Below are positions 10,296 to 51,125 of a stretch of 64,000 bases of DNA, piece by piece (positions within the stretch are counted from its first letter, which is position 1; every line of letters starts with the position of its first letter). Origin of the DNA: Streptomyces sp. NBC_01335 (GTDB lineage Bacteria > Actinomycetota > Actinomycetes > Streptomycetales > Streptomycetaceae); the NCBI RefSeq assembly GCF_035953295.1, contig NZ_CP108370.1, forward strand, positions 2,542,001 to 2,606,000. Reading direction: 5' to 3'. A program made the translations under genes and the position numbers. The notes beneath the pieces were generated by a model that made no database searches, was not told where the DNA came from, and saw only the letters and a program-made list of their open reading frames with translations.

Positions 10296-10317
10296 CACCG
10301 GTGCCCCTCTCCGTGGC

Positions 10318-17876: not shown

Positions 17877-17979
17877 AGGGGCGAATGTATGCCAGTCCGG
17901 GCGCCGGGCGCACCGCTGTTCCGCCTCCTGGACACGGAGTGGTAACGGCGGTCCCGGGGCTGCGGGCGGGCGGCGCACG

Positions 17980-18042
17980 GGAACGCCCCGGCCGCGGCGG
18001 GCGCTGTCGGTCGACGGCGTCCGCGGGTGGCCGGGGCGTTCC
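17980..18042 (-). terminator. Terminator after the acyltransferase gene
   Basis: ggaacgccccggcc (17980-17993) pairs with ggccggggcgttcc (18029-18042). A second inner stem ccgcgg/ccgcgg adds to it. It lies 20 bases past the acyltransferase stop. Confidence 0.75.
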
Positions 18043-18061
18043 GGTGAGGGTGTGCGGGGCG

Positions 18062-19510
18062 TCAGCCGCCCGTGCGGCTGCCGCTGTCCGCGAGCGTCCG
18101 GCCCTGGCCGGACTCGTCGACCGATTCTTCCGTCTCCCCGGGGGGAGCGGGCTGGGCGGCCACGGGGGCGGTGCGGACGGCCGGCTTGCGGCCGATGTCC
18201 TTGAGCCGCATCGCGGGCTTCTCGATCAGGTGCCAGGAGAGCGCCGCGACCGCCAGCGTGCCGCCGAGCGACATCGCGAGGTAGGGCCAGAATCCCCAGC
18301 GCGCGAAGCCGACGGCGGTCAGCGACTGCTGGACGGCGAACCCGTAGATGTAGACGCCGTACGAGAGGTCGTTGCGGGCCCCGATGCGGCGGAACGGCCC
18401 GGGGAGCCGGATCGCGAGCCAGAGGAGCAGGTAGGCGAAGGCGGGGATGCCGACGACGAAGAGGTACCCGTAGTGGATGCTCCCGAGGAGCAGGACGACC
18501 GAGAGGATGCCCAGCGGGTCGCTGACCGGGATGCGCTCCCGGTACATCTCGATCACGGCGCCGATGGCGAACGCGAAACCGAGGTAGATGAGGATGTCGG
18601 GGTCGAACTTGCCCATCACGGGGAAGATCTCGAAGCTCGTGGCGTACGACGAGTCGGAGAATCCGGCCCAGTGCGGGGTGGCCAGGGCCGGGTTGATCAC
18701 GAAGAAGCCGAGGACCACGGCCACCAGGAGCACGACGCGGCGGGCGCGGGCGAGCACGCCGGTCAGGGCGAGCAGGGCGACGCCGAAGTAGCAGAGCACC
18801 TCGTAGCGCAGCGACCAGAGCGCGGCGTCGATGCTGGGGCTGTGCGCCAGGCCGGAGCCGGCGGAGTGGGCGATGACCCCGGAGACGTCGTTCTGGCGGG
18901 GGGCGATGGCCCAGTTCGACTCCATGTAGTCGAGCGGCCCCCTGGAGTGGCCCCAGAAACCGTCCAGGCTTCCCTGCTGGCGCCAGTAGAGGAAGGGGGC
19001 GATGACGAAGGCGGTCACGGCGAGGCAGACCCAGAGGCCGGGCAGCAGGCGCAGGGCGCGGTGCCAGAGGTAGCGGCCCAGCGGGAGCCGGTTGCCGCTG
19101 CGGGTCACGAGAATGCCCGAGAGGACGAAGAAGCCGTAGACGGAGAGCTTGCCGAGGTCGGTCTGCCCGTGGCTGAACCAGTGACCGAACTCCTTGTCCC
19201 CGAATCCCAGCACGCTGGCGTGCGAGACGACGACGGCGGAGGCCAGACACAGCCGGATGAATCCGAGACTGTTGTTCCGGCCTTTGAAGCAGTCGGCGAC
19301 CGATCCCTGGGACCATGTGATCCGGCCGACCGCAATACGCGTACGAGTGATGACTGCACCTCTAACCGAAGAAGCGGCGAACCGGCTTCCCGACCGGCAC
19401 GCGAGGTGTGCGCGAGAGCAACGCCGCAAGAGCGCAAGGCCGTTGTTGCGTACCCCACTTGGCCGCGCGGGAGGGCCTGCCCGACCCCACACCTCTGGTG
19501 CACCGTACAT
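18062..19510 (-). CDS. Acyltransferase 3 family membrane protein
   Basis: The product is a multi-pass integral membrane O-acyltransferase (OafA/YrhL-like, acyltransferase 3 family). It opens with NNSLGFIRLCLASAVVVSH, a histidine at the end of helix 1 as in the family, followed by FGHWFSHGQTDLGKLSVYGFFVLSGILVTRS, and about ten hydrophobic helices ending in ALSWHLIEKPAMRL. Such enzymes move acetyl or similar groups from acyl-CoA to surface sugars, here perhaps the ribitol-phosphate or rhamnose polymer. The start is uncertain. In-frame codons are ATG 19510 and GTG 19546 or 19492, but the ~55 residues they add look non-coding. An ATC at 19351 with AGAGGTG upstream fits the family start better. 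The gene is divergent from the glycosyltransferase at 19649. Confidence 0.85.
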   Translation of the reverse strand: MYGAPEVWGRAGPPARPSGVRNNGLALLRRCSRAHLACRSGSRFAASSVRGAVITRTRIAVGRITWSQGSVADCFKGRNNSLGFIRLCLASAVVVSHASVLGFGDKEFGHWFSHGQTDLGKLSVYGFFVLSGILVTRSGNRLPLGRYLWHRALRLLPGLWVCLAVTAFVIAPFLYWRQQGSLDGFWGHSRGPLDYMESNWAIAPRQNDVSGVIAHSAGSGLAHSPSIDAALWSLRYEVLCYFGVALLALTGVLARARRVVLLVAVVLGFFVINPALATPHWAGFSDSSYATSFEIFPVMGKFDPDILIYLGFAFAIGAVIEMYRERIPVSDPLGILSVVLLLGSIHYGYLFVVGIPAFAYLLLWLAIRLPGPFRRIGARNDLSYGVYIYGFAVQQSLTAVGFARWGFWPYLAMSLGGTLAVAALSWHLIEKPAMRLKDIGRKPAVRTAPVAAQPAPPGETEESVDESGQGRTLADSGSRTGG

Positions 19511-19648
19511 GACATCGCGCCGGGACCGAACTGTTCGATGCGCCACAACCGCTATGGTGCTTCCGGGCGGCGACCCTCGCCCTCAATCGGTCTCCGATCC
19601 CGACACCGCCTTCGCGTTCAGGGTTCCCACTAGAGATGGGACACAGTT

Positions 19649-21679
19649 GTGTCAGTCAAAGTCAGCGTCATCATTCCGGTGTACAACCCGGGAAAGTACA
19701 TCGATCCCGCCATCGACTCGTTGCTGCGCCAGACCCTGCCCGCGAGCGAATTCGAAGTGCTGTTCGTCAATGACGGCTCGACCGATGACACACGCGAGCG
19801 CCTCGAAAAGCTGGCCACCGAGCACCCGCACTTCCGGGTGATCACCATCCCCAATTCGGGGTGGCCTGGCAAGCCTCGCAATATCGGCGTGGCGGAGGCC
19901 AAGGGCGAATACGTACAGTTCCTCGACCAGGACGACTACCTGGCATCCGAGGCTCTGCTGCGTCTCTACAACATGGGGCACCGCAACGGCTCCGACATCG
20001 TCATCGGTAAGGTGGCCAGCAACTTCCGCGGCGTCCCGCACGGCGTCTTCAAGGTCAACCGGGAGAAGTGCACGCTGCGTGACGCGCCGCTCTACGACTC
20101 CCTGACGCCGCACAAGATGTTCCGGACGGAATTCCTCCGCGAGAACTCGATCGCCTATCCCGAGGGCAAGCGCCGCCTCGAGGACCAGCTCTACATGATG
20201 CAGGCGTACTTCCCGGCGAAGGTCGTCTCCATCCTCGGGAACTACACCTGCTACTACTACTCGCGGCGCGACGACGGCCAGAACGCGGGCTCCGCGAAGC
20301 TCATCCCCTCGGGCTATTACGGAAACCTCCGCGAGGTCCTCGACGTCGTCGTGGAGAACACCGAGCCGGGCGAATTCCGCGACCTTCTGCTGCGCCGTTT
20401 CTACCGTGTGGAGATGTTGTCGCGCCTCAGTGAACCCGCCGTGCAGAAGTACGCGCCGGACTACCGCGACGAGATGATCGACGCCGTCCAGCCCCTGGCA
20501 CGCGACTTCATGCACGACGGCGTGCACGACGGGCTCGGCCCGATCCAGCGGCTCCGCTCCACCCTGCTGCGCAACGACGACCGCGAGGGGCTGGTCCGCA
20601 TCGCCCGGCTCGCCGGCTCCATCAAGGCGGCCGCCCGCCTGGAGAAGTTCGAGTGGCAGCCGGACGGCCGCATCCGGCTCGACATCACCGGCCGGCTCGT
20701 GCACGGCGACGACCAGGCGCCCGTCACCCTGGTGCGCCGCGACGGCCGCCTCCACCTGCACCCCGACCTCACGGCGGGCCTGCTGCCGGCCGGAGAGCTG
20801 CTGGACGTCGAGGACGACCTCGACGGCTACATGGCGGAGATCTCGCTGCGCAACCGCGAGACCGCCGTCGAGTGGCCCTGCCCCGCCAAGTTCACCTCGG
20901 AGGTCAAGGAGACCTCCGGCGGCGTCTTCGAGGTCGTGCTGACCGGCCACGGCCACGTCACCTCGGAGGGCGTCAAGAACCGCGGGCGCGTCTCGCGCGG
21001 ATTCTGGGACATCTGGGTGCCGCTGCGTGGCCTCGGCGTGGTCCGCAAGGCCCGGCTCGGCGCCGACCGCGCCCCCGGGGTGGACGCGGACTGCCTGCCC
21101 GCCTCGCTGGGCTCGCCCGCCCGCGCGGTGATCCCTTACTTCACCGACCCGCACGGCAACCTCACGCTGGACGTGGCCCGCCGCGCCAAGAAACTGGCCG
21201 TGTACCTGGAGGGCCGCCCGGTCCTGCGCACCCCCGGCAGCAAGACGGAACTGCGCCTGGACATCGTCACCACGACCGCCACGGCGGCCTCCAAGGCCGA
21301 ACTGGTGCTGACCGCCGCCGGCGGCACCGACCGGGTGCTCCCGACGACGCTCCGCCCCGTCCAGGGCCGCGCCCACGTGTCGGTGCCCGCCAGGGCCGCG
21401 GACGTGCCGCCGGGCGAGTGGAAGCTCTCGGTCCGGCTGGACGGCGCCAAGAGCGCCGCCGTGCCGCTCGCCGACGTACGGGTGGAGCGGGGCGGGAAGA
21501 TCGTCCTCGCGTCGGACCTGCCCGAGGTGAGCCCCGCCATGCTGAGCGCGATGGCCTCCGCCCGCCGCAAGGCGACCGTGCGCAGCGCGCTGCGGAGCGT
21601 GGGCGGGCCGATCGTCCGCCGACTGCCCGCCAAGGCCCGCAAGAAGGCGCGCGGCCTCGCCGCGAAGGTGGCCGGCTGA
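19649..21679 (+). CDS. TarS/TarP-like family 2 glycosyltransferase with beta-rich C-terminal domains
   Basis: The 676-residue product starts with a GT-A domain: VSVIIPVYNPGKYIDPAIDSLLRQ, VNDGSTDDT, the acceptor-loop motif NSGWPGKPRN, and the metal-binding LDQDD. YPEGKRRLEDQLYMMQAYF holds the likely catalytic acid. After about residue 330 come two or more beta-rich segments resembling the C-terminal domains of the S. aureus wall teichoic acid transferases TarS and TarP, then a basic tail (RRLPAKARKKARG). It probably decorates a poly(ribitol phosphate) or related wall polymer with a sugar; the sugar is unknown. No signal peptide, so it acts on the cytoplasmic face. The first ~700 bases look less GC-rich than the neighbours. 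It runs with rmlC on the plus strand. Confidence 0.85.
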   Translation: MSVKVSVIIPVYNPGKYIDPAIDSLLRQTLPASEFEVLFVNDGSTDDTRERLEKLATEHPHFRVITIPNSGWPGKPRNIGVAEAKGEYVQFLDQDDYLASEALLRLYNMGHRNGSDIVIGKVASNFRGVPHGVFKVNREKCTLRDAPLYDSLTPHKMFRTEFLRENSIAYPEGKRRLEDQLYMMQAYFPAKVVSILGNYTCYYYSRRDDGQNAGSAKLIPSGYYGNLREVLDVVVENTEPGEFRDLLLRRFYRVEMLSRLSEPAVQKYAPDYRDEMIDAVQPLARDFMHDGVHDGLGPIQRLRSTLLRNDDREGLVRIARLAGSIKAAARLEKFEWQPDGRIRLDITGRLVHGDDQAPVTLVRRDGRLHLHPDLTAGLLPAGELLDVEDDLDGYMAEISLRNRETAVEWPCPAKFTSEVKETSGGVFEVVLTGHGHVTSEGVKNRGRVSRGFWDIWVPLRGLGVVRKARLGADRAPGVDADCLPASLGSPARAVIPYFTDPHGNLTLDVARRAKKLAVYLEGRPVLRTPGSKTELRLDIVTTTATAASKAELVLTAAGGTDRVLPTTLRPVQGRAHVSVPARAADVPPGEWKLSVRLDGAKSAAVPLADVRVERGGKIVLASDLPEVSPAMLSAMASARRKATVRSALRSVGGPIVRRLPAKARKKARGLAAKVAG

Positions 21680-21763
21680 CCCGTCGGCCGTCCGGTACCG
21701 GACGGCCGGGGCACAGCCCGGCCGGAGAACCAGAAGTACACGAGAAGCGAAAAGAACAGGAAC

Positions 21764-22372
21764 GTGAATCAGATGCGGCAGCTCGACATCGCCGGAGCCT
21801 GGGTCCAGGAGCCCAAGGTCTTCCCCGACAGCCGGGGAAGCTTCCACGAGTGGTTCAAGGCCGCCGACTTCACCGAGGCGGCCGGCCACGGGCTCCAGCT
21901 CGCCCAGGCCAACTGCTCGGTGTCGAGCCGGGGCACCCTGCGCGGCATCCACTTCGCCGACGTCCCGCCGAGCCAGGCCAAGTACGTCAAGTGCGTGCGC
22001 GGCGCGGTGCTGGACGTGATCGTGGACATCCGGGTCGGCTCCCCCACGTACAAGCAGTGGGAGGCCGTCCGCCTCGACGACGTGGACCACCACGCGGTGT
22101 ACCTCTCCGAGGGCCTCGGCCACGCCTTCATGGCGCTGACCGACGACGCCACCGTGGTCTACCTCTGCTCCGAGGGGTACGCCCCCGGCCGCGAGCACGG
22201 GATCAACCCGCTCGACCCGGAGCTGGGCATCGAGTGGCCCGAGGGCATCACCCCGCTGCTCTCCGACAAGGACGCCGCCGCCCCCACGCTGGCCGAGGCC
22301 GAGGCGCAGGGGCTGCTGCCCTCCTACGAGGACTGCCAGGCCTACTACGAGCAGCTGCGCGCCCGGGGCTGA
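21764..22372 (+). CDS. rmlC: dTDP-4-dehydrorhamnose 3,5-epimerase
   Basis: RmlC epimerises dTDP-4-keto-6-deoxyglucose at C3 and C5, the third step to dTDP-L-rhamnose. The 202-residue cupin protein shows DSRGSFHEWFKAADF, QANCSVSSRGTLRGIHF with the catalytic His, KYVKCVRGAVLDVIVDIRVGSPTY, and YLSEGLGHAFMAL. The GTG at 21764 is preceded by AGGA at good spacing; the ATG three codons later is less well placed. It follows the glycosyltransferase by 85 bases on the plus strand, while rmlD, B and A face it on the minus strand. A terminator follows at 22394-22426. Confidence 0.95.
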   Translation: MNQMRQLDIAGAWVQEPKVFPDSRGSFHEWFKAADFTEAAGHGLQLAQANCSVSSRGTLRGIHFADVPPSQAKYVKCVRGAVLDVIVDIRVGSPTYKQWEAVRLDDVDHHAVYLSEGLGHAFMALTDDATVVYLCSEGYAPGREHGINPLDPELGIEWPEGITPLLSDKDAAAPTLAEAEAQGLLPSYEDCQAYYEQLRARG

Positions 22373-22393
22373 CCCGGCGACAAGCCCGTACGA

Positions 22394-22426
22394 GAACGCC
22401 CGGCCGGGGTCACCGGCCGGGCGTTC
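22394..22426 (+). terminator. Terminator after rmlC
   Basis: gaacgcccggccgg (22394-22407) pairs perfectly with ccggccgggcgttc (22413-22426), 5-base loop, 21 bases after the rmlC stop. Confidence 0.85.
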
Positions 22427-22491
22427 GGCGTTCCCGGGCGGCGGACCGGAAGGAGAGCCGGGCCGGGCAGGGAGCCGGGCCGGGAACACCG

Positions 22492-22531
22492 ACGGCCGGC
22501 TCCCCGCCCGGGTGGGCGGGGAGCCGGCCGT
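22492..22531 (-). terminator. Terminator after rmlD
   Basis: A perfect 18-base-pair stem (arm acggccggctccccgccc at 22492-22509, partner 22514-22531) with a 4-base loop, 20 bases past the rmlD stop. Confidence 0.85.
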
Positions 22532-22551
22532 GGTGACGGCGCGTCGGGCGG

Positions 22552-23436
22552 TCAGCCGCGCTCGGCGGCGACGAGGGCGTCGAACGCCTCCGTCAGCGCC
22601 TCGTGCCAGTCGCGGAGCGGTGCGATCCCGGCGGCGGCCCAGCGGTCGTGTCCGAGCACGCTGTACGCCGGGCGGGGAGCGGGCCGGACGAAGGCCTCGC
22701 TGGTGGTCGGGCGGACCCGCTCGGGGTCCGCGCCCAGCAGCCGGAAGATCTCCCGGGTGAAGCCGAACCAGGTCGTCTCGCCGCCGCTGGTGCCGTGGTA
22801 GACACCCGCCGGGGCGTCGCCCGCGAGGGCGGCCCGGCCGAGGGCGACCAGACGGTCCGCCAGGTCGACGGTCCAGGTCGGCTGGCCCCGCTGGTCGTCG
22901 ACGACGTCCAGGGTCTCCTTGATGCCTTCCAGCTTGATCATCGTGCGGACGAAGTTGCCGCCGCCCGCTCCGTACAGCCAGGCCGTACGGACCACGTAGC
23001 CGGTCTCCGGGAGGGTCTCCAGCACCGCGCGCTCGCCGGCGAGCTTGGTCCGCCCGTAGGCGCTGCGCGGGGCGGTGGCCTCGTCCTCGGCGTACGGCTT
23101 GTCGGCGTCGCCGGCGAAGACGTAGTCCGTGGAGACCTGGAGCAGCACGGCGCCGTTCTCACGGCACGCCTCGGCGAGGACCGCCGGGCCCGTGCCGTTG
23201 ACGCGCAGCGCGGCCTCCTCCTGGCTCTCCGCGTCGTCCACGGCGGTCCAGGCGGCGCAGTTGACGACGACCGCGGGGCGGTGCTCCGCGAACGCGGCGG
23301 CGACGGCGGCCGGGTCGGCGACGTCGAGCGCCGCACGGTCGGCGGCGACGGCGTCGACGCCCTCCGCGGCCAGCTTCGCCAGGACGTCGCGGCCCAGCAT
23401 GCCGCCGGCTCCGGTCACCAGCCAGACGGGGCTCAC
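22552..23436 (-). CDS. rmlD: dTDP-4-dehydrorhamnose reductase
   Basis: RmlD reduces dTDP-4-keto-L-rhamnose to dTDP-L-rhamnose, the last step. The 294-residue SDR protein has the NAD(P) loop VTGAGGMLGRDVL near residues 7-19, NCAAWTAVDDAE, the STDYVF motif, and the catalytic YGRTK (Tyr-x-x-x-Lys). The GTG start at 23436 overlaps the rmlB stop by four bases (GTGA), so the two are translationally coupled. It is the last gene of the minus-strand rmlA-rmlB-rmlD run. Confidence 0.95.
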   Translation of the reverse strand: MSPVWLVTGAGGMLGRDVLAKLAAEGVDAVAADRAALDVADPAAVAAAFAEHRPAVVVNCAAWTAVDDAESQEEAALRVNGTGPAVLAEACRENGAVLLQVSTDYVFAGDADKPYAEDEATAPRSAYGRTKLAGERAVLETLPETGYVVRTAWLYGAGGGNFVRTMIKLEGIKETLDVVDDQRGQPTWTVDLADRLVALGRAALAGDAPAGVYHGTSGGETTWFGFTREIFRLLGADPERVRPTTSEAFVRPAPRPAYSVLGHDRWAAAGIAPLRDWHEALTEAFDALVAAERG

Positions 23437-24419
23437 AGGGCGGCCCGGTCCTTCAGCGGCTCCCACCAGGCGCGGTTGTCGCGGTACCACTGCACGGTCT
23501 CGGCGAGGCCCTGCTTGAAGTCCTTGCGCGGGACGTAGCCGAGCTCCTCGCGGATCTTGGTGCAGTCCACGGAGTAGCGGCGGTCGTGGCCCTTGCGGTC
23601 CTCGACGTAGGTGACGCTGGTCTCCCAGTCGGCGCCGCAGGCTTCCAGCAGCAGGCCGGTGAGCTCCTTGTTGGAGAGCTCGGTGCCGCCGCCGATGTTG
23701 TAGACCTCGCCGGCGCGGCCCTTCGTGCGGACCAGCTCGATGCCCTGGACGTGGTCGTCGATGTGCAGCCAGTCGCGGACGTTGGCGCCGTCGCCGTAGA
23801 GCGGGACGGTCTTGCCGTCGAGCAGGTTGGTGACGAAGAGCGGGATGACCTTCTCGGGGAAGTGGTGGTGCCCGTAGTTGTTGGAGCAGCGGGTCACCCG
23901 CACGTCGAGGCCGTGGGTGCGGTGGTAGGAGAGCGCGATGAGGTCGCTGGACGCCTTCGCCGAGGAGTACGGCGAGTTGGGCTCCAGCGGGTGCGTCTCG
24001 GGCCAGGAGCCCTCGTCGATCGAGCCGTAGACCTCGTCGGTGGAGATGTGCACGAAGGTCTTGATCCCGGCCAGGTGCGCGGCGTGGATCAGGGTGTGGG
24101 TGCCCACGACGTTCGTACGGACGAACTCGGCGCCCCCGTCGATGGAGCGGTCCACGTGCGACTCGGCGGCGAAGTGCACCACCTGGTCGTGGTCGGCCAT
24201 GAGCTTGCCGACGAGTTCCGCGTCGCAGATGTCGCCCTGGACGAAGGAGAAGCCCGGGTGGTCGCGGACCTCGTCGAGGTTGGCGGGGTTGCCCGCGTAG
24301 GTGAGCTTGTCCAGCACCGTGACGGTGATGTCGCCGGGGCCCTGGGGGCCGAGGACGGTACGGACGTAGTGCGAGCCGATGAAGCCGGCTCCGCCGGTCA
24401 CCAGGATGTTGGTCGTCAT
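23433..24419 (-). CDS. rmlB: dTDP-glucose 4,6-dehydratase
   Basis: RmlB converts dTDP-glucose to dTDP-4-keto-6-deoxyglucose using bound NAD. The 328-residue extended SDR shows ILVTGGAGFIGSHYVR at residues 5-20, AAESHVDRSI, ISTDEVYG (with the TDE catalytic residues), and PYSSAKASSD with Tyr-x-x-x-Lys. The ATG at 24419 overlaps the rmlA stop (ATGA). It is coupled upstream to rmlA and downstream to rmlD. Confidence 0.97.
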   Translation of the reverse strand: MTTNILVTGGAGFIGSHYVRTVLGPQGPGDITVTVLDKLTYAGNPANLDEVRDHPGFSFVQGDICDAELVGKLMADHDQVVHFAAESHVDRSIDGGAEFVRTNVVGTHTLIHAAHLAGIKTFVHISTDEVYGSIDEGSWPETHPLEPNSPYSSAKASSDLIALSYHRTHGLDVRVTRCSNNYGHHHFPEKVIPLFVTNLLDGKTVPLYGDGANVRDWLHIDDHVQGIELVRTKGRAGEVYNIGGGTELSNKELTGLLLEACGADWETSVTYVEDRKGHDRRYSVDCTKIREELGYVPRKDFKQGLAETVQWYRDNRAWWEPLKDRAAL

Positions 24420-25486
24420 GAGGAGATCTGCACCTTGCTGTGGTCGCCGAGGACGAGTCGGTGGGCGGACGGGTTGCGGGGCGCCGGGGTGACCTCGACG
24501 TCGCGGCCGATGAGCGACGCCTCCACGCGGCGGACACCGGTGATGGAGGCTCCCCGGAGCACGATGGAGTACTCGATCTCGCTGTCCTCGATCCGGCAGC
24601 CCTCGGAGACCGAGGTGAAGGGACCGACGTACGCGTCGCTGATGACCGAACCGGCTCCGATGATCGCGGGACCGACGATGCGGCTGCCGGTGACCTTCGC
24701 GCCGGGCTCGATCCGCACGCGGCCGATGATCTCGCTGTGCTCGTCCACCTCCGCGCCGTCGGTGGCCGGCTCGACGGTCTCCAGGACGGACCGGTTGACC
24801 TCCAGCATGTCGGTGACGTTGCCGGTGTCCTTCCAGTAGCCGGAGATGGTGGTGGAGCGGACGTTGCGCTGCTGGTCGATCAGCCACTGGATGGCGTGGG
24901 TGATCTCCAGCTCGCCGCGCCAGGACGGCTCGATCGAGCGGACGGCCTCGTGGATCGCCGGGGTGAAGAGGTAGACGCCGACGAGGGCCAGGTCGCTCTT
25001 GGGCTTCTTCGGCTTCTCCTCCAGCGCGACGACGCGGCCCTCGGAGTCCAGCTCGGCGACGCCGAAGGAGGTCGGGTTGGGCACCCGGGTCAGCAGGATC
25101 TGCGCGTCGGGGCGGTCTCCGCGGAAGCCCTCGACGAGGCCGGTGATGCCGCCCACGATGAAGTTGTCGCCGAGGTACATCACGAAGTCGTCGTCGCCCA
25201 GGAAGTCGCGGGCGATGAGCACCGCGTGCGCCAGGCCGAGCGGCTGGTCCTGCGGAATGTAGGTGACCTCGATGCCGAGCGCGGAGCCGTCGCCGACCGC
25301 TTCACGGATCTCGGCGGCGGTGTCGCCCACGATGATGCCGACCTCGGTGATACCGGCGTCGGCGATCGCTTCGAGCCCGTAGAAAAGCACCGGCTTGTTG
25401 GCGACCGGTACCAATTGCTTCGCGGACGTGTGGGTGATCGGGCGCAGGCGGGTGCCCGCCCCGCCGGAGAGTACGAGTGCCTTCAC
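24416..25486 (-). CDS. rmlA: Glucose-1-phosphate thymidylyltransferase, long form
   Basis: RmlA makes dTDP-glucose from dTTP and glucose 1-phosphate, the entry to dTDP-L-rhamnose. The 356-residue product has the nucleotidyltransferase start ALVLSGGAGTRLRPITHTSAKQLVPVANKPV, YLGDNFI with the metal-binding Asp, and a C-terminal left-handed beta-helix (residues ~245-320). The extra ~65 residues over the ~290-residue housekeeping form place it with the long type seen in antibiotic and polysaccharide clusters. I start at the GTG at 25486 (VKALVLSGG). It heads the rmlA-rmlB-rmlD operon. Confidence 0.95.
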   Translation of the reverse strand: MKALVLSGGAGTRLRPITHTSAKQLVPVANKPVLFYGLEAIADAGITEVGIIVGDTAAEIREAVGDGSALGIEVTYIPQDQPLGLAHAVLIARDFLGDDDFVMYLGDNFIVGGITGLVEGFRGDRPDAQILLTRVPNPTSFGVAELDSEGRVVALEEKPKKPKSDLALVGVYLFTPAIHEAVRSIEPSWRGELEITHAIQWLIDQQRNVRSTTISGYWKDTGNVTDMLEVNRSVLETVEPATDGAEVDEHSEIIGRVRIEPGAKVTGSRIVGPAIIGAGSVISDAYVGPFTSVSEGCRIEDSEIEYSIVLRGASITGVRRVEASLIGRDVEVTPAPRNPSAHRLVLGDHSKVQISS

Positions 25487-25654
25487 GTGTGCTGTCCCCA
25501 AGCTGCGTGGTCGGTGGCCGGAAGCCGGATGGCAGGCGTTCCCGAGGCCGCTTTCATTCCATGGGATATTACTTCGAGTTCCGGTGAGGTTTCCCGACGA
25601 GTAACCCCGGCCACCGCCCCGCCCCGCCCCGGCCGCCCGCTCCGGGCTCCCGGA

Positions 25655-26887
25655 TCAGACCGAGGACTTCCACCGCTTCATGTCACGGCGGACCCGGCGC
25701 ACCACCCTGCGTGCCAGGGTAGGCCTGGGCTTGGGCCGGCCCGGCTTCGGCCGCGCGGGCGCCTGCAGCCGCTTGCTCGGGGCCCACTCCGGCACCGTCA
25801 TCTCGAACGCCTCGTCGGGGAGGCCCGCACCGGGCTTCCGGAAGTGCGGATAGACGAGGTAGGCGGCGTCCCCCTGCTCGGCCCGGACGACCTTCGGGGT
25901 GTGCCGGGCGGCGATGTACCGGTGGATGTCGGCGAGCAGGTCCAGCCGGCCGCGGGCGACGCATTCGAGCCGGAGGCGTTCGTTCACCTTGATCAGCTTC
26001 GCCACGCCCGGGGTCCAGTACCTGGTGATCGGGGCGGCCAGCTCCAGCTTGTGGGCGCGGACCGTCTCGCTCTCGTTGGCCACGGCCGGACCGAACTGCT
26101 GGATGAGCCCCACGGTGAACGGGCGCGCCATCATGAAGTCGCGCTCAGGCCCCTCGGGCACGAGTTCGGCGATGAGCTCGACCAGGGCCGTCAGTGCCTC
26201 GAACCGGGGCTCGTAACTGCCGCTGCGGGTGACGTGCAGGCCGTCGTCACGGCCCACCAGGTAGTAGCAGACGTACTCGGAGACGACGGAGACACCGGCG
26301 CCCCGGAGGTAGGCCTCCATGGTGAAGAGGGCGTCTTCGCCGGTACTCATCTTCTCGTCGAAGGTCATCCCGTGGCGGACCAGCAGCTCGCGGCGGAAGA
26401 GCTTCTGGGCGCTGAGTGTGAAGATGACGCGCGACTTGTAGAGATCGACGCGCTCCTCGTCCTTGCGCCCCCACATGGACCCGGCGGCGCTCCGGTTGAC
26501 GCCCACCATTTTGCCGAGCACCACGTCGGTGCCGGCCTTGTCGGCGATGGCGACCATGCGTTCCAGCGCCTCGAAGCCGAGGAAGTCGTCGGCGTCGAGG
26601 AAGAAGACGTACCGGCCGCGCGCGCGGGCGAGGCCCACGTTGCGCGGCCCGCTCGGGCCGCCGGAGTTGGCCTGGTGGATCACGGTGGTGGGGACGGCCG
26701 TACGCGCGGCGAACTCGTCCAGGTACGCGCCGGTGCCGTCCTTCGACCCGTCGTCGACCGCGATGAGCTCGAAGCGGTCGGCGGGCAGGGTCTGCGCCTC
26801 CACGGACTGGAGGCAGCGGATGAGATAGGGCATGGCTTCGTAAGCGCCGATGATCACGCTGACGTCTGGAATTCGAGTGTCGTTCAC
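25655..26887 (-). CDS. TarS-like family 2 glycosyltransferase
   Basis: The 410-residue product has a GT-A domain closely patterned on S. aureus TarS: VSVIIGAYEAMPYLIRCLQSVEAQ, VDDGSKDGT, NSGGPSGPRN, FLDADD (metal site), SRVIFTLSAQKLFRRELL and STGEDALFTMEAYL with the likely catalytic acid. The C-terminal part is helical and ends in a very basic tail (ARRVVRRVRRDMKRWKSSV) that may bind membrane lipids. It lacks the beta-rich C-terminal domains of the two larger relatives in the window. It likely adds a sugar to a ribitol-phosphate wall polymer. The GTG at 26887 is chosen; an alternative GTG lies at 26929. Confidence 0.85.
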   Translation of the reverse strand: MNDTRIPDVSVIIGAYEAMPYLIRCLQSVEAQTLPADRFELIAVDDGSKDGTGAYLDEFAARTAVPTTVIHQANSGGPSGPRNVGLARARGRYVFFLDADDFLGFEALERMVAIADKAGTDVVLGKMVGVNRSAAGSMWGRKDEERVDLYKSRVIFTLSAQKLFRRELLVRHGMTFDEKMSTGEDALFTMEAYLRGAGVSVVSEYVCYYLVGRDDGLHVTRSGSYEPRFEALTALVELIAELVPEGPERDFMMARPFTVGLIQQFGPAVANESETVRAHKLELAAPITRYWTPGVAKLIKVNERLRLECVARGRLDLLADIHRYIAARHTPKVVRAEQGDAAYLVYPHFRKPGAGLPDEAFEMTVPEWAPSKRLQAPARPKPGRPKPRPTLARRVVRRVRRDMKRWKSSV

Positions 26888-26956
26888 GAATAGAGATGAC
26901 AGCGGACGCACAGAATTGGTTGTGCGCACCTCTCAAGTGCGAAAAGTGACTTGCGT

Positions 26957-27004
26957 CACAATGGCCTGTTCTGACCTCTTTGGAGGCGAGAACAGGCCAT
27001 TGTG
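26957..27004 (-). terminator. Terminator after the polyol-phosphate polymerase gene
   Basis: cacaatggcctgttct (26957-26972) and its perfect complement (26989-27004) form a 16-base-pair stem. The inner bases can extend it with cctc/gagg. It is relatively AT-rich for this genome. Confidence 0.85.
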
Positions 27005-27033
27005 TATTACTTTTCGGTCATCGCTGGCGAGAT

Positions 27034-29079
27034 TCAGCCATTCACATGCTCGCTGAGATGAGCGACCCCGAGATTGCGCGTCTCCGCCCGGGCGGCCAGC
27101 GCCTGGACAGCACGGTCGAACTGGACGAGCGAAGTCGGCTCGTCGGGCCCGAGGAGGTACTCCTTCAGCTCGCGCCGGCCCTCGGCCCGGTCGTCCGCGG
27201 CGGGGTCGGACACGGCCGCGAGCAGCCGGTCCAGCTCGCTCGCGTCGTTGGAGAGGATCACCGCGGCCCGGACGGCCGTGTTCTGGCGCTTGAACTCCTC
27301 CTCGCCCAGCTCGGCCGAGTCGGTCACCGCGTACGGCTTGCCGCTGGCGATGAAGTCGGAGACCACGCTGGAGATGTCCGACACCATGGCGTCCGACTCG
27401 TTGAAGCAGTCGTACAGACGCATGGTCGATCCGGAGATGACCTGGTGCTGCCACCAGCCCTGGGAGCGCCAGTAGGCGGTGTTCCAGTCGTCCCGCAGCT
27501 TCGCGGTCTCGGCCTCGCGCGCGGGGTCGGCCAGCGAGTTGCGCGAGAGCTCGGCCTCGTCGCGGGCCGTCTCGCCGGTGCCGCCGGTCAGCTCGACCAG
27601 GCGCGCCTCGATACGGGCCAGCTCGGCGCGGGCCTCGGCCTGCTCGCCCCGGAGCGCCGCGCTCTCCCCGGCCCAGCGCGGGTCGTTGGCGCGGCGTGCG
27701 GCCGCGTCCTCGATCATCGCGGTGATCCGCAGGTGGGCGGCGGCCGCCTTGCGGCTGCGGGTGCCGGTGAACGGGTGCGGCTTGTAGAGCACCCGGACGG
27801 GCTTCTCGGACTCCAGCAGCCGGCGGACGATGTTCTCGCCGGCGAGCAGCAGCGAGGTGTTGCCCGGGTTGTCGTCCCAGCCCTCCCAGGTGGGCGCGTA
27901 CAGCACGGTCGGGACGGAGTTCTTCGGGGTGCCGGTCCAGGAGGTGATGGAGGCCAGCTGCGGCCGCCCCACCTCCACGATGTCCTCGTCGCGGACGCCG
28001 ACGTCGGCCAGCGCGTAACGGTCGCGGCCGGCCCGGCCCGCCGTCCAGACCTCGTCGTACGCCTTGCTGTACGGGTTGACGCTGGCCAGCTTGTCGCTGT
28101 CGCCGTGGCCGATGAAGACGTGCTTCATGGTCGGCACGCGCAGCATGTGGATGTTCTTGCCGACGTTGGCCGCGTAGAGCGCGACCCGCACCGTCGAGAG
28201 GTCCATGTTCATCAGGTGCACGCCGCCGGGGACGCAGAGCACCGGGACGGACGTGCCGGCGAGCTGCGGGACGATGGCGCGCTCGCGGAGCACGATCATC
28301 GGGCGGCCGCTCAGCCGGCCCATGGTCTCCAGCCACATGTTGACCTGGTAGGCGGAGTCCTTGGAACCGGAGAAGTAGAGGATGACGGTCGGCTTGTACT
28401 CCTGCAGCCACGCGTCGACGGCCGCCAGGACCTTGGCCTCCGGCGGCACGAGACGGCTGGGCCGCACGTACGGCAGCAGCGCGAGGATGTAGACCACCGC
28501 GAGGAAGAGCGTCAGCCCGAGGCCGGCGTAGGCGAGCGCGTCGGTGCCGCTCTGGATCGCGGCCACCACGCCCACCATGGCGAACACGTCGAAGTGGAGC
28601 ATCTTCTCGGCGGGGCGGCTCATCAGCAGACGCGGCGGCGCGTCCCCTATCCCGACGGGGCCGAGGTCGATGTTCCGGGTGACCACCGGCAGCTTGCGGC
28701 GGAGCCGGATGAGGGTCACCATCGCGCTCTGTGGTGCCTGGAGACCGTAGAACGCCAGGAGACAGGCGACCGTCGTGTAGAAGAACGCCCCCTCGCCGTA
28801 TCCCATGCGCGACATGAGCAGGATCAGCAGCAGCTCACGCACGAGGAAACGAATCGACAGACCGGCCCGGACGGCGGCGAGACGATTGACGAGATAACTG
28901 CCGCAGTGGTGCAGATAACGGTCGGCCAGATATGTGACGAGGACCGCCGCGGAGAACAGCCAGATATTGGGGAGTATCGCCGCGAGCATGACGCACGGGA
29001 ATCCCAGGGCCAGGAGAATTGCGGCGGCGAGCTCAGAACCGCTGCCCACTCTCGCCACGCGAATGGCTTTCGAAAACAC
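27034..29079 (-). CDS. Membrane-anchored CDP-glycerol/CDP-ribitol polyol-phosphate transferase (TagF/TarL-like)
   Basis: The 681-residue product has two parts. Residues 1-~225 hold about six membrane spans (AAAILLALGFPCVMLAAILPNIW... to FLAVVYILALLPYV). Residues ~235-680 form a TagF/TarL-type transferase with VPTMKHVFIGHGDSDKLASVNPYSKAYDEVW (catalytic His in GHGDSDK), VLYAPTWEGWDDN, RVLYKPHPFTG and SDAMVSDISSVVSDF. Between the last two motifs lies an extra ~90-residue Ala/Glu/Arg-rich, probably coiled-coil insert. The family polymerises glycerol or ribitol phosphate from a CDP precursor. The next upstream gene should make CDP-ribitol, so poly(ribitol phosphate) is the expected product. Staphylococcal and Bacillus relatives are not fused to a multi-pass membrane domain. 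Confidence 0.85.
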   Translation of the reverse strand: MFSKAIRVARVGSGSELAAAILLALGFPCVMLAAILPNIWLFSAAVLVTYLADRYLHHCGSYLVNRLAAVRAGLSIRFLVRELLLILLMSRMGYGEGAFFYTTVACLLAFYGLQAPQSAMVTLIRLRRKLPVVTRNIDLGPVGIGDAPPRLLMSRPAEKMLHFDVFAMVGVVAAIQSGTDALAYAGLGLTLFLAVVYILALLPYVRPSRLVPPEAKVLAAVDAWLQEYKPTVILYFSGSKDSAYQVNMWLETMGRLSGRPMIVLRERAIVPQLAGTSVPVLCVPGGVHLMNMDLSTVRVALYAANVGKNIHMLRVPTMKHVFIGHGDSDKLASVNPYSKAYDEVWTAGRAGRDRYALADVGVRDEDIVEVGRPQLASITSWTGTPKNSVPTVLYAPTWEGWDDNPGNTSLLLAGENIVRRLLESEKPVRVLYKPHPFTGTRSRKAAAAHLRITAMIEDAAARRANDPRWAGESAALRGEQAEARAELARIEARLVELTGGTGETARDEAELSRNSLADPAREAETAKLRDDWNTAYWRSQGWWQHQVISGSTMRLYDCFNESDAMVSDISSVVSDFIASGKPYAVTDSAELGEEEFKRQNTAVRAAVILSNDASELDRLLAAVSDPAADDRAEGRRELKEYLLGPDEPTSLVQFDRAVQALAARAETRNLGVAHLSEHVNG

Positions 29080-29147
29080 GAAGTACCGCTCCCGAGGGTT
29101 CCGACTTATACCTTGCGGGGGAATTGTGCAGAATTAGCTTCACGAAT

Positions 29148-29194
29148 TCGGACCCCTGCCGTTCACGCGAAGTGAACGACAGGGGTCCGAATGG
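29148..29194 (-). terminator. Terminator after the CDP-ribitol synthase gene
   Basis: A 21-base-pair stem with one wobble (arms 29148-29168 and 29174-29194; the core reads cggacccctg/caggggtccg) and loop gcgaa, 18 bases past the stop. Confidence 0.85.
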
Positions 29195-29211
29195 TGGATT
29201 GTCAAGCAGTA

Positions 29212-30711
29212 TTACACATCGGCCTGTCGGTCCAGGACCGCGGCCAGCGCCTGCTCGAAGCCCGACGCCTCGGAGGCCCCCCGGGTCGGGTCCTGCTGCC
29301 GGACGTCGATGACGTGCCCGGTCATCTCGGAGAGCAGCACGTCGAGGGAGGTCCGGGCGACCGCCTCGGAGGAGAGCAGCGACCCCGCGGGCTCGTCGCC
29401 GAAGGCCTTCGTACGCATCGGGGTGGCGGTGCGCTCCGGGTTCACGCAGTTCACACGCACTCCGTCACCGGCCCACTCGTCCGAGAGCGCCTGGGTGAGA
29501 TTGACCATGGCGGCCTTGGTGGAGGAGTACAGGCTGTACTCGGCACGTCCCCGGGTGTAGCTGCTGGAGGTGTAGAGGAGCAGCTGTCCCTTGGACTCGG
29601 CGAGGAACTTGTGCGAGGCCCGGGCGATCTGGACCGGCGCGAGGTAGTTGACGTTCAGGGCTTCCTGGATCGTCGCGTTGTCCGTCTCGGCGAGCTTGCC
29701 GATCCGCAGCACCCCGGCGGTGTTGACGACGTAGTCGACCCGGCCGGTCTCGGCGTACGCCTTGGAGAGCGCGTCGTCGATGTGCTCCGGGTTCTCCACG
29801 TGGGTCCCCGTGGTGGACCGGCCGAGCGCGTAGACCTTGGCGCCGAACGACTCAGCGAGGGCGGCGATGTCCGCGCCGATGCCGTAGGAGCCGCCGAAGA
29901 CGACCATGGTCTTCCCGGTCAGCGCCTCCCGGTAGGCCGCGTCGTCGGCGGGCGACGGCACGGCCGTGGAGGCCAGCTGGAAGAGCTTGTCCGCGATGAA
30001 GACGTCGACCGGCTGGGTCACCTTCATGTTGTACTCGTCGCCCGCGACGACGTAGATCGGCACGTCGGGCAGGTACTTCAGGACCACCGAGCAGTCGTCG
30101 GTCGCCTGGAAGTTCGGGTCGCCGGCCGCGACCTCGTACGCCCTGCGGATGGTGGAGAGCTTGAACGCCTGCGGCGTCTGGCCCCGGCGCAGGCGGGAGC
30201 GGTCGGGGACCTCGGTGATGAACTCGCCGTCACCGCCGTGCGTACGGGTCACGATGATCGTGTCCGCGGACGGGATGGCGACGTCCACCGCCTCGTACCG
30301 GCCGAGGGCGTCCACGCAGTCCGTGATGACGCGCTGCGACAGCAGGGGGCGCACGGCGTCGTGGAAGAGGACGTTGCGGTCCTCGCCCTCCGCCAGGCCC
30401 TCGCCGAGGACGGAGATGGCCCGCTCGGTGGTCTCGTTGCGCGTCGTCCCGCCCTCGATGACCTTGACCACCTTGGTCAGGCCGGCCTTCGCGACGATCT
30501 TCTCGACGTCGGCGACATAGCCGGGCGCCATCAGCACGATGATGTCGTCGATCGACTCGGACTGCTGGAAGATCGACAGGGTGTGCTCGATGACAGCCTT
30601 GCCTGCGATCTTCAGCAGCTGCTTGGGGATGGACAGTCCCACGCGCTGACCGGTACCCCCGGCGAGCACGACTGCTGTGGTACGGGCTTGGGCTATGTGC
30701 TGCACAGACAC
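29212..30711 (-). CDS. Bifunctional CDP-ribitol synthase: IspD-like cytidylyltransferase fused to SDR reductase
   Basis: The 499-residue protein is a two-domain fusion. Residues ~10-240 are an IspD/TarI-type cytidylyltransferase: TAVVLAGGTGQRVGLSIPKQLLKIAGK, FHDAVRPL, RRGQTPQAF, and EYNMKVTQPVD. Residues ~260-495 are a short-chain dehydrogenase with GGSYGIGADIAALAE (NAD(P) loop), NTAGVL, TSSSYTRGRAEYSLYSSTKAAM (Ser, Tyr-x-x-x-Lys) and VNCVNPERTATPM. The same fusion is known in Haemophilus influenzae Bcs1, which reduces ribulose 5-phosphate and activates it to CDP-ribitol. S. aureus uses separate TarJ and TarI. I expect the same reaction here. The GTG at 30711 has AAGGTAGG six bases upstream; that site is partly buried in a leader hairpin. 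Confidence 0.88.
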   Translation of the reverse strand: MSVQHIAQARTTAVVLAGGTGQRVGLSIPKQLLKIAGKAVIEHTLSIFQQSESIDDIIVLMAPGYVADVEKIVAKAGLTKVVKVIEGGTTRNETTERAISVLGEGLAEGEDRNVLFHDAVRPLLSQRVITDCVDALGRYEAVDVAIPSADTIIVTRTHGGDGEFITEVPDRSRLRRGQTPQAFKLSTIRRAYEVAAGDPNFQATDDCSVVLKYLPDVPIYVVAGDEYNMKVTQPVDVFIADKLFQLASTAVPSPADDAAYREALTGKTMVVFGGSYGIGADIAALAESFGAKVYALGRSTTGTHVENPEHIDDALSKAYAETGRVDYVVNTAGVLRIGKLAETDNATIQEALNVNYLAPVQIARASHKFLAESKGQLLLYTSSSYTRGRAEYSLYSSTKAAMVNLTQALSDEWAGDGVRVNCVNPERTATPMRTKAFGDEPAGSLLSSEAVARTSLDVLLSEMTGHVIDVRQQDPTRGASEASGFEQALAAVLDRQADV

Positions 30712-30780
30712 AGACGACCTACCTTGCGAGGGCTCGGGAACCCCCCGATGGTTGCACTCTCCGTTACCATCTCGCAAGGT
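30712..30780 (-). promoter_or_regulatory. Structured 5' leader that pairs with the ribosome binding site of the CDP-ribitol synthase gene
   Basis: On the minus strand ACCTTGCGAG (30780-30771) is the exact complement of CTCGCAAGGT (30730-30721), which includes the AAGG of the ribosome binding site. Between them a second hairpin ATGGT/ACCAT can form. The 10-base-pair stem would hide the site. It may be a translational switch or simply a stable leader; no known riboswitch is recognised. Confidence 0.4.
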
Positions 30781-31112
30781 GGACGTCGAGTGCGGGCCGC
30801 CCCCACGACACCCGCCGTTCCCGTGTGAACAGGGCCGTTACCTGCGAAAGTGCCGCACGAGCAGGTGACCGACACCACACGGTTGAGCGGCCGATGTCCC
30901 GGCTGAGCGGCGCGGACGGCCGTTTCGTTTCACCCGACCGGCCGACACACACCTCCCGGCCTCACCCGTTCGGGGGCGCCGGCCCCCACCGGTTCCGCAC
31001 CGCGGCACCGCCGTGCCGCCCCGCCGGGACACCGCCCGGAACGCCCGAGGGCCCCTCCCCCGGCGACCGCGCGGGCCCGGGGGCCCTGCTGCGGTGTCCG
31101 GCGGAGAGGCCC
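30781..31112. other. Gene-free gap between the CDP-ribitol synthase gene and obg
   Basis: About 330 bases of very GC-rich DNA with no convincing gene. It marks the right end of the inserted wall-polymer block and presumably holds the promoter for the CDP-ribitol synthase gene. I see no attachment-site repeat or integrase remnant. Confidence 0.5.
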
Positions 31113-31159: not shown

Positions 31160-32596
31160 TTAGAAGGGGTCGAACTCGTCGTACTCCTTCTGCGCGTCGT
31201 CCCGCTCGGCGTCGCGGTCCCGGCGGCGCTGGGCGGCGGGGCGCGGGGCCTCCAGGCGGTGGTCCTCGCCGCGTCGGCCGAGCATCTCGGCGCCGGCCAT
31301 CATCGTCGGCTCCCAGTCGAAGACGACCGCGTTCTCCTCGGGGCCGATCGCCACGCCGTCACCGGCGCGGGCGCCGGCCTTCATCAGGGCGTCCTCGACG
31401 CCGAGACGGTTCAGGCGGTCCGCGAGGTAACCGACGGCCTCGTCGTTGTTGAAGTCGGTCTGACGCACCCAGCGCTCGGGCTTGTCGCCGCGCACCCGGT
31501 AGATGCCCTCTTCGTCGACGGCCACGGTGAACCCGGTGTCGTCGACGGCCTTCGGGCGGATGACGACCCGGGTCGCCTCCTCCTTCGGCTTGGCGGCACG
31601 CGCCTCGGCGACGATCCCGGCCAGTGCGTACGAGAGGTCGTTGAGCCCCTTGTGCGCGACGGCGGAGACCTCGAAGACGCGGTAGCCGCGCTCCTCCAGC
31701 TCCGGGCGGATCATGTCGGCCAGGTCCTGGCCGTCCGGGATGTCGACCTTGTTGAGGACGACGATGCGGGGCCGGTCCTCCAGGCCGCCGTACTGGCGCA
31801 GCTCCTCCTCGATGATGTCGAGGTCGGAGACGGGGTCGCGGTCGGACTCCAGCGTCGCCGTGTCCAGTACGTGCACGAGCACCGAGCAGCGCTCGACGTG
31901 GCGGAGGAACTCCAGGCCCAGCCCGCGGCCCTGGCTGGCGCCGGGGATGAGGCCAGGGACGTCGGCGATGGTGTAGACGTTCGAACCGGCGGTGACGACA
32001 CCGAGGTTGGGGACGAGCGTCGTGAACGGGTAGTCCGCGATCTTCGGCTTGGCCGCCGAGAGGACCGAGATCAGCGAGGACTTGCCCGCGCTCGGGTAGC
32101 CGACCAGCGCCACGTCGGCGACGGTCTTCAGCTCCAGGACGATGTCGCGGTCCTCGCCCGGCTCGCCGAGCAGCGCGAAGCCGGGGGCCTTGCGGCGGGC
32201 CGAGGAGAGCGCGGCGTTGCCGAGGCCGCCGCGGCCGCCCTGTCCGGCGACGAACGTGGTGCCCTGGCCGACGAGGTCGGCGAGGACGTTGCCGTCCTTG
32301 TCGAGGACGACGGTGCCGTCCGGCACGGGCAGGACCAGGTCCTGGCCGTCCTTGCCCGAACGGTTGTCGCCCGCGCCGGGCTGGCCGTTGGTGGCCTTGC
32401 GGTGGGGGTGGTGGTGGTAGTCCAGCAGCGTGGTCACGGACTGCTCGACGACGAGGATCACGTCGCCGCCGCGTCCGCCGTTGCCGCCGTCGGGTCCGCC
32501 GAGGGGCTTGAACTTCTCACGGTGGACGGAGGCACAGCCGTGGCCTCCGTTACCCGCGGCGGCATGGAGCTCGACGCGGTCCACGAAGGTGGTCAT
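31160..32596 (-). CDS. obg: Obg GTPase
   Basis: Obg is an essential ribosome-assembly GTPase that in Streptomyces also affects the onset of aerial growth. The 478-residue protein has the glycine-rich Obg fold (residues 1-160; [31 protein letters not shown]), the G domain with [26 protein letters not shown], and NKVD, an OCT domain (residues ~350-430) and a charged C-terminal tail. It follows rplU and rpmA in the usual order. The ATG at 32596 has an AGG-containing site upstream. Confidence 0.97.
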
Positions 32597-32735: not shown

Positions 32736-32993
32736 TCAGGCGGCGACGGGAACGATGTTGACGACCTTGCGGCCGCGGTGCGTACCGAACTCCACCGCAC
32801 CGGCGGTCAGCGCGAACAGCGTGTCGTCGCCGCCACGGCCGACGCCCGTGCCCGGGTGGAAGTGGGTGCCGCGCTGGCGGACCAGGATCTCACCGGCGTT
32901 GACGGCCTGACCGCCGAAGCGCTTCACGCCGAGCCGCTGAGCATTGGAATCGCGCCCGTTCCGAGTGGACGATGCGCCCTTCTTGTGTGCCAT
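32736..32993 (-). CDS. rpmA: 50S ribosomal protein L27
   Basis: L27 lies near the peptidyl transferase centre. The 85-residue sequence starts [29 protein letters not shown] and continues [28 protein letters not shown], the family's signature. The N-terminus is the short uncleaved form, unlike the extended form of Firmicutes. It lies 11 bases after rplU. Confidence 0.98.
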
Positions 32994-33004
32994 GTCTCAG
33001 TCCC

Positions 33005-33325
33005 TTACTTCGCAGCCGCGGGGATACCGGTGACCTTGATCGCCGTGTACTGCTGACGGTGACCCTGGCGACGGCGGTAGCCGGTCTTGTTCTTGTAGCG
33101 AAGGATGTCGATCTTCGCACCCTTGTGGTGGTCCACGACCTCGGCCTGGACCTTGATGCCGGCCAGGACCCACGGGTCGCTGGTCACGGCGTCACCGTCG
33201 ACAACGAGCAGGGTCGAGAGCTCGACCGTGTCGCCAACCTTGGCAGTGGAAATCTTGTCAACCTCAACGATGTCACCGACAGCAACCTTGTGCTGGCGGC
33301 CACCGCTGCGCACGATGGCGTACAC
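33005..33325 (-). CDS. rplU: 50S ribosomal protein L21
   Basis: L21 binds 23S rRNA during large-subunit assembly. The 106-residue sequence starts [25 protein letters not shown] and ends with the basic [22 protein letters not shown] signature. The GTG at 33325 follows a GAGAGAGA ribosome binding site. Unlike the usual order, rne is not directly upstream: a glycosyltransferase gene lies between them, so rplU must have its own promoter in the 285-base gap. Confidence 0.98.
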
Positions 33326-39716: not shown

Positions 39717-39889
39717 GCGGGCGGTTCTCCCGTCGCGCTCCCGGGCGCCGCGCTGGTCCGGTCCGGCGGGCTGGTCGCGTGGTGCGCGACCCCGCTGTCC
39801 GGGGCGCGGGCGCCGCACGGGAGCTGATGTCTGGCTCGCCGGTTCCCTACGCGGTGTGCGTACGGCCTGGCGAAAGTCTTCTGGTCAGT

Positions 39890-49176: not shown

Positions 49177-49216
49177 GGTGCGCCCCCGTCGGTGGTGCTC
49201 GGGTGCTGGTCCGGCC

Positions 49217-49876: not shown

Positions 49877-49887
49877 GGGGTTCAGCC

Positions 49888-51003: not shown

Positions 51004-51125
51004 GTGCGGCGGCCGTGCCTTCCTCGTAGGAATGTTCGTGCCTGTATATCAACGATCTGCCGTACGGGGCGGCAGCGCCCGCACGGCAGACCGAAGGTGT
51101 GTCAGGGGCCTGTCGGCCGCACCGC

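Follow-up and report, generated by a model that had tools for sequence, protein, structure and literature searches.

Two described systems stand closest to the locus treated here. A wall teichoic acid-teichuronic acid locus of Streptomyces griseus and S. antibioticus spans SGR_4943 to SGR_4957 and varies in content between species; the neighbors of L27 and L21 in S. griseus encode TarIJ (SGR_4956) and TagF (SGR_4957), NMR identifies its wall polymer as ribitol phosphate, and teichuronic acid decides umbrella toxin binding in Streptomyces (PMC13274773). In Listeria monocytogenes, RmlT of the rmlT-rmlACBD cluster rhamnosylates wall teichoic acid (PMC4441387), and its structures have been solved (8bz4-8bz8, 9gzj, and 9gzk). 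We analyzed a 64,000-nucleotide window of Streptomyces sp. NBC_01335 (contig NZ_CP108370.1, positions 2,542,001 to 2,606,000), in which 13 kb between proB and obg is probably a swappable block that builds a ribitol-phosphate wall polymer decorated with rhamnose. A locus of this kind is already published; new are the rhamnose and acyl variant, the counts of cassette types, the location of the rhamnose module to one side of obg or the other, and a signal of exchange. In the open-licence literature, a scope outside which most older wall chemistry falls, nothing on this locus was found beyond PMC13274773.

The cassette lies between proB (16713 to 17945, minus strand; TIGR01027, 422 bits) and obg (31160 to 32596, minus strand; NF008954, 792.6 bits). 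Nine genes were called from proB to obg: AT, GT1, rmlC, rmlD, rmlB, rmlA, GT2, POL, and IspD-SDR. Genes were called with a purpose-written codon-score script, and gene families were built by single linkage at 38% identity. A first-pass annotation of this DNA had described a wall polymer gene set of about 13 kb here, with a complete dTDP-rhamnose pathway, a Bcs1-type CDP-ribitol synthase, two TarS/TarP-like glycosyltransferases, and an acyltransferase; all nine genes were identified and that description held, the synthase at family level. It had missed a third TarS-like glycosyltransferase (GT3), an LCP-domain protein, and the position of the cassette RmlD as the sole one found in the genome. 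As in the S. griseus/S. antibioticus locus, genes of predicted TagF and TarIJ type stand beside obg, followed by the L27 and L21 genes with modifying genes beyond, and the two loci share a TarS-like glycosyltransferase (UtrC in the published locus) and a predicted O-acetyltransferase (PMC13274773). The window differs in carrying a rhamnose pathway, an RmlT-like enzyme, and an AT3 acyltransferase on the proB side, while no UtrD orthologue was found in its own genome, where the best relatives are 31 to 33% identical to a probe named UtrD-like from its domain. The parts of PMC13274773 consulted do not contain the word "rhamnose" and describe no rhamnose module.

All four rhamnose pathway genes pass curated models: rmlC (21764 to 22372, plus strand; dTDP-4-dehydrorhamnose 3,5-epimerase, TIGR01221, 161.8 bits against a cut-off of 155.75), rmlD (22552 to 23436, minus strand; dTDP-4-dehydrorhamnose reductase, TIGR01214, 298 bits), rmlB (23433 to 24419, minus strand, with the start taken from the gene caller; dTDP-glucose 4,6-dehydratase, TIGR01181, 430.8 bits), and rmlA (24416 to 25501, minus strand, start at 25486 or 25501; long-form glucose-1-phosphate thymidylyltransferase, TIGR01208, 461.6 bits). 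Their products are predicted to make dTDP-L-rhamnose, and the cassette RmlD was the only match in its own genome at E ≤ 1e-20. Next to rmlC lies GT1 (19649 to 21679, plus strand), an RmlT/TarS-like GT-A protein with Glycos_transf_2 and TarS_linker domains and a predicted teichoic-acid rhamnosyltransferase. Its predicted structure is closest to Listeria RmlT, whose fold is matched over the full length and beyond the catalytic half. FLDQDD at residues 91 to 96 and ED at 178 to 179, candidates for the metal-binding DxD and the catalytic aspartate, are both conserved in a 22-row alignment. As in Listeria, a full dTDP-rhamnose pathway thus stands beside a GT-A transferase of the same fold (PMC4441387). 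The identity to RmlT is about 24% and the phylum is another one, the window set is linked to an AT3 acyltransferase and polymer genes, and the Streptomyces module appears to have passed between species, at two sites that flank obg. In gene content and predicted fold, the finding extends Listeria-type rhamnosylation of teichoic acid to the actinomycetes. Rhamnose-bearing ribitol teichoic acids occur in other actinomycetes, such as Agromyces.

Scanning named genomes for GT1 yielded 27 loci, from Streptomyces, Actinacidiphila, and Glycomyces. rmlC adjoined GT1 in all 27, and rmlD, rmlB, and rmlA were present in 26, the remaining locus (L114) stopping at a contig end; POL and IspD-SDR accompanied GT1 in 25 (not in L114 or L127). 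The constant adjacency of GT1 and rmlC fits a joint function. From fold and linkage, GT1 likely puts L-rhamnose on ribitol phosphate. Several observations pull the other way. In a pairwise alignment, the catalytic aspartate of RmlT, D198, stands opposite Q180 of GT1, one residue off from ED 178-179, and this ED lines up with TarS. TarS and TarP also match the GT1 fold well, and the best solved relative of GT3 by sequence is RmlT too, so a match to RmlT does not by itself fix the sugar donor. A GT1 family member was also absent from 7 of the 11 proB-obg intervals with rmlD, in the sample of 96 described below. The shared fold, the GT3 match, these intervals, and a sole RmlD that would serve all rhamnose needs of the cell speak for an alternative in which the ribitol polymer stands but GT1 transfers another sugar, and rhamnose ends up in a different polysaccharide, in a longer side chain, or in a secreted natural product. 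We regard this as unlikely, since GT1 and rmlC stay side by side in all 27 loci, at two chromosomal sites as well as in Glycomyces.

The GT1 gene itself has an uneven base composition. The first-pass annotation had noted a less GC-rich 5′ end, and indeed the first 900 bases have a GC fraction of 0.633 against 0.752 for the remainder; the two 1-kb segments of lowest GC in the whole 64 kb begin at 19250 and 19500. The same drop (0.63 to 0.69 against 0.73 to 0.76) was found in all 25 measured orthologues of the 27 named, two having been left unmeasured. It is therefore a property of the gene, and the dip was rejected as a sign of import.

The ribitol core consists of IspD-SDR and POL. IspD-SDR (29212 to 30777, minus strand; PF01128 and PF00106) is a Bcs1/TarIJ-like fusion predicted to synthesize CDP-ribitol. 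It scored 167.9 bits with the ribitol-5-phosphate cytidylyltransferase model NF001183, a margin of 1.9 bits over the cut-off of 166, and fell below the cut-off of the general ispD model. Its closest solved relatives are ribitol-5-phosphate cytidylyltransferases, so that at family level it combines the cytidylyltransferase and reductase of a CDP-ribitol enzyme. The cytidylyltransferase family is that of Staphylococcus aureus TarI, but here the IspD part forms one protein with a short-chain reductase (PF00106) in place of a separate TarJ, and S. aureus TarJ is a different type of dehydrogenase. POL (27034 to 29079, minus strand) is a membrane-anchored, TagF/TarL-like GT-B protein and predicted ribitol-phosphate polymerase that scores 30.3 bits with PF04464, for which the cut-off is 22.1. 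Its model has a pLDDT of 74.7, with the GT-B part at residues 227 to 668 behind a helical N-terminus; relative to S. aureus TarL, it has this N-terminal membrane part and is far in sequence. Most of the 120 listed POL homologues carry a precomputed PF04464 label. Together, IspD-SDR and POL occupy the position beside obg of the published S. griseus TarIJ/TagF pair, and the ribitol-polymer reading of the core is best supported by this match to SGR_4956 and SGR_4957.

For POL in particular, several points weigh against this assignment. The correspondence to SGR_4956 and SGR_4957 is by position and not by alignment. No single stretch of the PF04464 match is significant alone, NCBIfam gives nothing, and a whole-genome PF04464 search listed another gene only. 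No solved relative was found by sequence, and hhalign gave a probability of 30.6% over 113 columns. The fold matches include TagF and TarL, but sugar epimerases score as high or higher; a family's absence from these lists was not read as exclusion. Neither sequence nor profile comparison established POL as a clear TagF. The TagF/TarL-like polymerase claimed at first pass thus stands as a PF04464 match over cut-off, and the kinship is plausible but thin. The backbone might then not be poly(ribitol phosphate) at all: POL could use another CDP-polyol or sugar phosphate or make a short primer, with the main polymer coming from a TagF fusion encoded at 6.53 Mb. A true TagF domain is indeed encoded elsewhere in this genome, and POL relatives occur alone, with no IspD-SDR, in 17 of the 96 intervals. 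We nevertheless consider this alternative improbable, as IspD-SDR accompanies POL in 50 of the 96 and passes the ribitol-5-phosphate cytidylyltransferase model and as the walls of S. griseus and S. antibioticus contain ribitol phosphate (PMC13274773). The genome gave no match to TagA/WecG (PF03808); some other enzyme would therefore make the linkage unit of any teichoic acid.

To place the cassette in the genus, proB-obg intervals were compared. obg was present in all 179 sampled genomes, and 100 downstream stretches were taken among the places listed; selection began mostly with the closest Obg sequences and went on to a spread favoring long contigs. Ninety-six were usable, with proB in reach; L025 and L026 (no proB within 19 kb), L072 (contig end), and L080 (no proB in reach) were left out, of which L025 and L026 both show the core and rml genes. 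Interval length ranged from 77 bases to 17.2 kb, with a median of 8.8 kb. The IspD-SDR and POL core was found in 50 intervals, a lone divergent POL in 17, and a GtrA/GT2/TagF-fusion cassette in 10; the others held other POL/TagF sets (14), Stealth genes (1), another content (1), or no called gene (3). Among the 50 core intervals, a GT2 relative (41), pyruvyl transferase (18), PhoD (18), a TagF protein (12), and divergent POL (11) were more frequent than rmlD (5), the methyltransferase (4), the GT1 family (4), or AT (1). The rml genes, a GT1 orthologue, GT2, POL, and IspD-SDR occurred together in 3 of 96 intervals (L015, L021, and L031) and with AT in 1. Genus-wide, IspD-SDR was present in 192 of 392 genomes, and GT1 at ≥60% identity in 19 of 392, this genome included and four over partial length. 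The gene set is thus not present in nearly all Streptomyces, in keeping with the first-pass annotation, whose term "strain-specific" does not fit a core this widespread; the rare part is the rhamnose module.

The lone POL relatives are about 43% identical and lie in intervals of approximately 2.5 to 3 kb (L033, L040, L042-L044, L050, L051, L055, L061-L064, L070, L076, L086, L090, and L099).

Phylogenetic comparison supports exchange of the block with another lineage. In a 51-row flank tree built on proA, proB, and a portion of obg, the window groups with ten rows of L002-L017, while in the POL tree it groups with L021, L015, L008, and L031 at a starred support of 99. Forcing the window together with nine flank sisters cost 268 log-likelihood units for POL (approximately unbiased test, P = 9.9e-6) and 83 for IspD-SDR (P = 7e-4), and the flanks rejected a clade of the five POL sisters (P = 1e-91). 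Nucleotide identities follow the same division: the window is closer to L021 than to L003 in POL (83.5 versus 76.8%) and in both halves of IspD-SDR (88.9 versus 85.9% and 91.1 versus 87.4%), and closer to L003 in the 3′ part of obg (84.8% to L021 versus 92.2%). proB leans slightly to L003, and GT2 is equally far from all. This pattern fits an exchange with one breakpoint before obg and another, less clear, on the left between proB and GT1. The case is weakened by the flank grouping with L002-L017, which has an unstarred support of 92, by the flanks' failure to reject a window-L021 pair (P = 0.20), and by the naming of the groups for the topology tests after the trees were seen. Vertical descent, with the odd placement of POL arising from ancient copies lost differentially, would agree with a POL tree that follows the flank tree for most rows, and with proA (86.9 versus 86.8%) and mid-obg (91.8 versus 90.6%) identities that barely separate L021 and L003. 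Given the likelihood costs of joining the window to its flank sisters and the opposite leanings of POL and 3′ obg, we judge descent of this kind very unlikely.

The whole reading, to which we attach fairly high confidence, is an exchangeable wall-teichoic-acid cassette for a ribitol-phosphate polymer bearing rhamnose. IspD-SDR would make ribitol-5-phosphate and CDP-ribitol, as its domains and the published TarIJ at the same place suggest, and membrane-bound POL would polymerize ribitol phosphate. RmlA, RmlB, RmlC, and RmlD, by family assignment, would supply dTDP-L-rhamnose, from which the RmlT-like GT-A enzyme GT1 would attach L-rhamnose to ribitol phosphate. GT2, with GT3 across obg, may add other sugars, AT may add an O-acyl group, and an LCP ligase, perhaps that encoded at 8481 to 10496, could join the polymer to peptidoglycan. 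Homologous recombination in the conserved flanks would be the simplest route for a swap, with a surface recognized differently by lectin-guided toxins and phages as the likely benefit. A rhamnose-bearing ribitol-phosphate polymer had been proposed at first pass and is likely, with the GT1 model nearest RmlT and IspD-SDR and POL in their position beside obg; for the O-acylation suggested there, an AT3 domain is present. By analogy with the published toxin system (PMC13274773), rhamnose decoration may affect recognition by rival toxins and phages. A cassette with counted relatives with and without rhamnose offers a direct genetic test of wall chemistry against susceptibility to rivals and phages.

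The rhamnose module is not confined to the proB side. Among the 27 named GT1 loci, 20 adjoin proB and 5 adjoin rplU at the far side of obg (L117, L118, L120, L121, and L123; rne is visible in four), while in two Glycomyces loci neither anchor is seen. Of the 27, 20 have a methyltransferase relative; L102 and the window do not, and these two share the same variant, with AT and no methyltransferase. In a GT1 tree of 36 rows, at least two changes between the two sites are needed, so relocation of the module appears rare; two long branches meet in this tree. In 60 stretches upstream of obg, a UtrD-like dehydrogenase was found in 17 (a count that rests on one dehydrogenase motif), the rhamnose module in 5, a short interval of <1.3 kb in 21, and other content in 17. 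The 5 of 60 is no frequency, because the stretches were partly chosen, G140, G177, G133, G011, and G141 having been taken for TarS-like hits near obg. The utr-type genes were named from the domains of L156, one gene of L160, and the description in PMC13274773, not by S. griseus alignment; the domains of one utr-like locus fit the published pathway. utr-like genes were confined to genomes that have the ribitol core (17 of 40, versus 0 of 18 without it; P = 5e-4, uncorrected for kinship), as would follow if the ribitol polymer carried the teichuronic acid.

Mutual exclusion of the rhamnose module and teichuronic acid was not shown. Of the 40 core genomes for which both sides of obg were read, 1 had both, 5 had rml only, 16 had utr only, and 18 had neither (Fisher P = 0.22), a count that took only the proB-obg side for rml. 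G174 had been scored as having neither despite rmlA and rmlB at proB-obg, and in G011, G133, and G141 the module lies at the rplU side; with all four taken as rhamnose carriers, the counts became 1, 9, 16, and 14 (P = 0.026). Removal of the three genomes chosen for hits near obg gave 1, 6, 16, and 14 (P = 0.097). For 4 of the 18 genomes with neither, the upstream stretch stops short of rne. A wider proposal, which we find possible though on balance doubtful, is that the genes flanking obg-rpmA-rplU to the left and right make up a single serotype locus across the genus, with modules of ribitol-core, rhamnose, teichuronic-acid, pyruvyl, TagF, and Stealth type swapped between species, some of them able to sit on either side, and with the rhamnose module as an alternative to the teichuronic acid bound by umbrella toxins. 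If the module were such an alternative, acquiring it would therefore change which rivals and phages attack.

The two variable sites are separated by a conserved block of rpmA (L27, 32736 to 32993) and rplU (L21), together at 32736 to 33323 on the minus strand (TIGR00062 and TIGR00061), and the second site is bounded by rne (RNase E; 35514 to 39818, minus strand; TIGR00757, 498.9 bits). In the window, the rplU-rne interval holds only GT3 (33611 to 35314, minus strand; PF00535 and PF22181, 90.2 bits), and a relative 79% identical lies at the same place in genome G170. GT2 (25655 to 26929, minus strand) has PF00535 and a weaker match to PF22181 (TarS_linker, 38.3 bits), and its best solved relative is TarS (E = 1.5e-38). 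GT1, GT2, and GT3 resemble S. aureus TarS and TarP in having a TarS-linker domain and a catalytic half. GT2 DNA is approximately 72 to 74% identical to every compared relative regardless of lineage, as if it had been exchanged or diversified independently.

AT (18062 to 19546, minus strand, with an uncertain start probably nearer 19300) is an OafA-like AT3 membrane acyltransferase (PF01757, 71.8 bits against 31) with 7 hydrophobic segments in a simple hydropathy scan, as expected of a multipass AT3 protein; AT adjoins GT1 in L102, L104, L106, and L015. The neighborhood carries spore-wall genes (pbp2, mreC, and mreB at 47005 to 52289), and gene calls gave no integrase or transposase in the interval, although no search aimed at mobile elements was made; both points agree with the first-pass annotation. 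The LCP-domain protein (8481 to 10496, minus strand; PF03816, 30.1 bits, and PF13399, 35.1 bits) is a possible wall ligase, which by synteny may be kin to PdtA (SCO2578). S. coelicolor PdtA attaches a diglycosyl-phosphate polymer (PMC7831098). Parallels to PdtA and the TagF homologue SCO2997 are the LCP protein and mre genes in the window and a TagF fusion elsewhere in the genome.

Other TarS-linker proteins of the genome are encoded at 3.107 and 3.553 Mb, with a weak match at 6.532 Mb. The weak match belongs to a 1,264-residue protein in which a GT2 domain is joined to a clear, true TagF domain (L137, 8770 to 12564; G000:C1, ~6.53 Mb), likely a second teichoic-acid polymerase of the genome. 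At ~3.547 to 3.554 Mb (L139, 3066 to 9826), a sulfotransferase and APS kinase gene lies a few genes from a TarS-like glycosyltransferase, possibly for a sulfated wall polymer. In another genome, the proB-obg interval of L046 (6097 to 13066) carries ALF-repeat and trypsin/FG-GAP genes beside Stealth-type genes, and relatives of these genes occur in the rplU-rne stretches L145, L149, L153, and L159; the ALF-repeat and trypsin/FG-GAP genes resemble those of umbrella-toxin components. In the published locus, an UmbA gene adjoins utrJ (PMC13274773).

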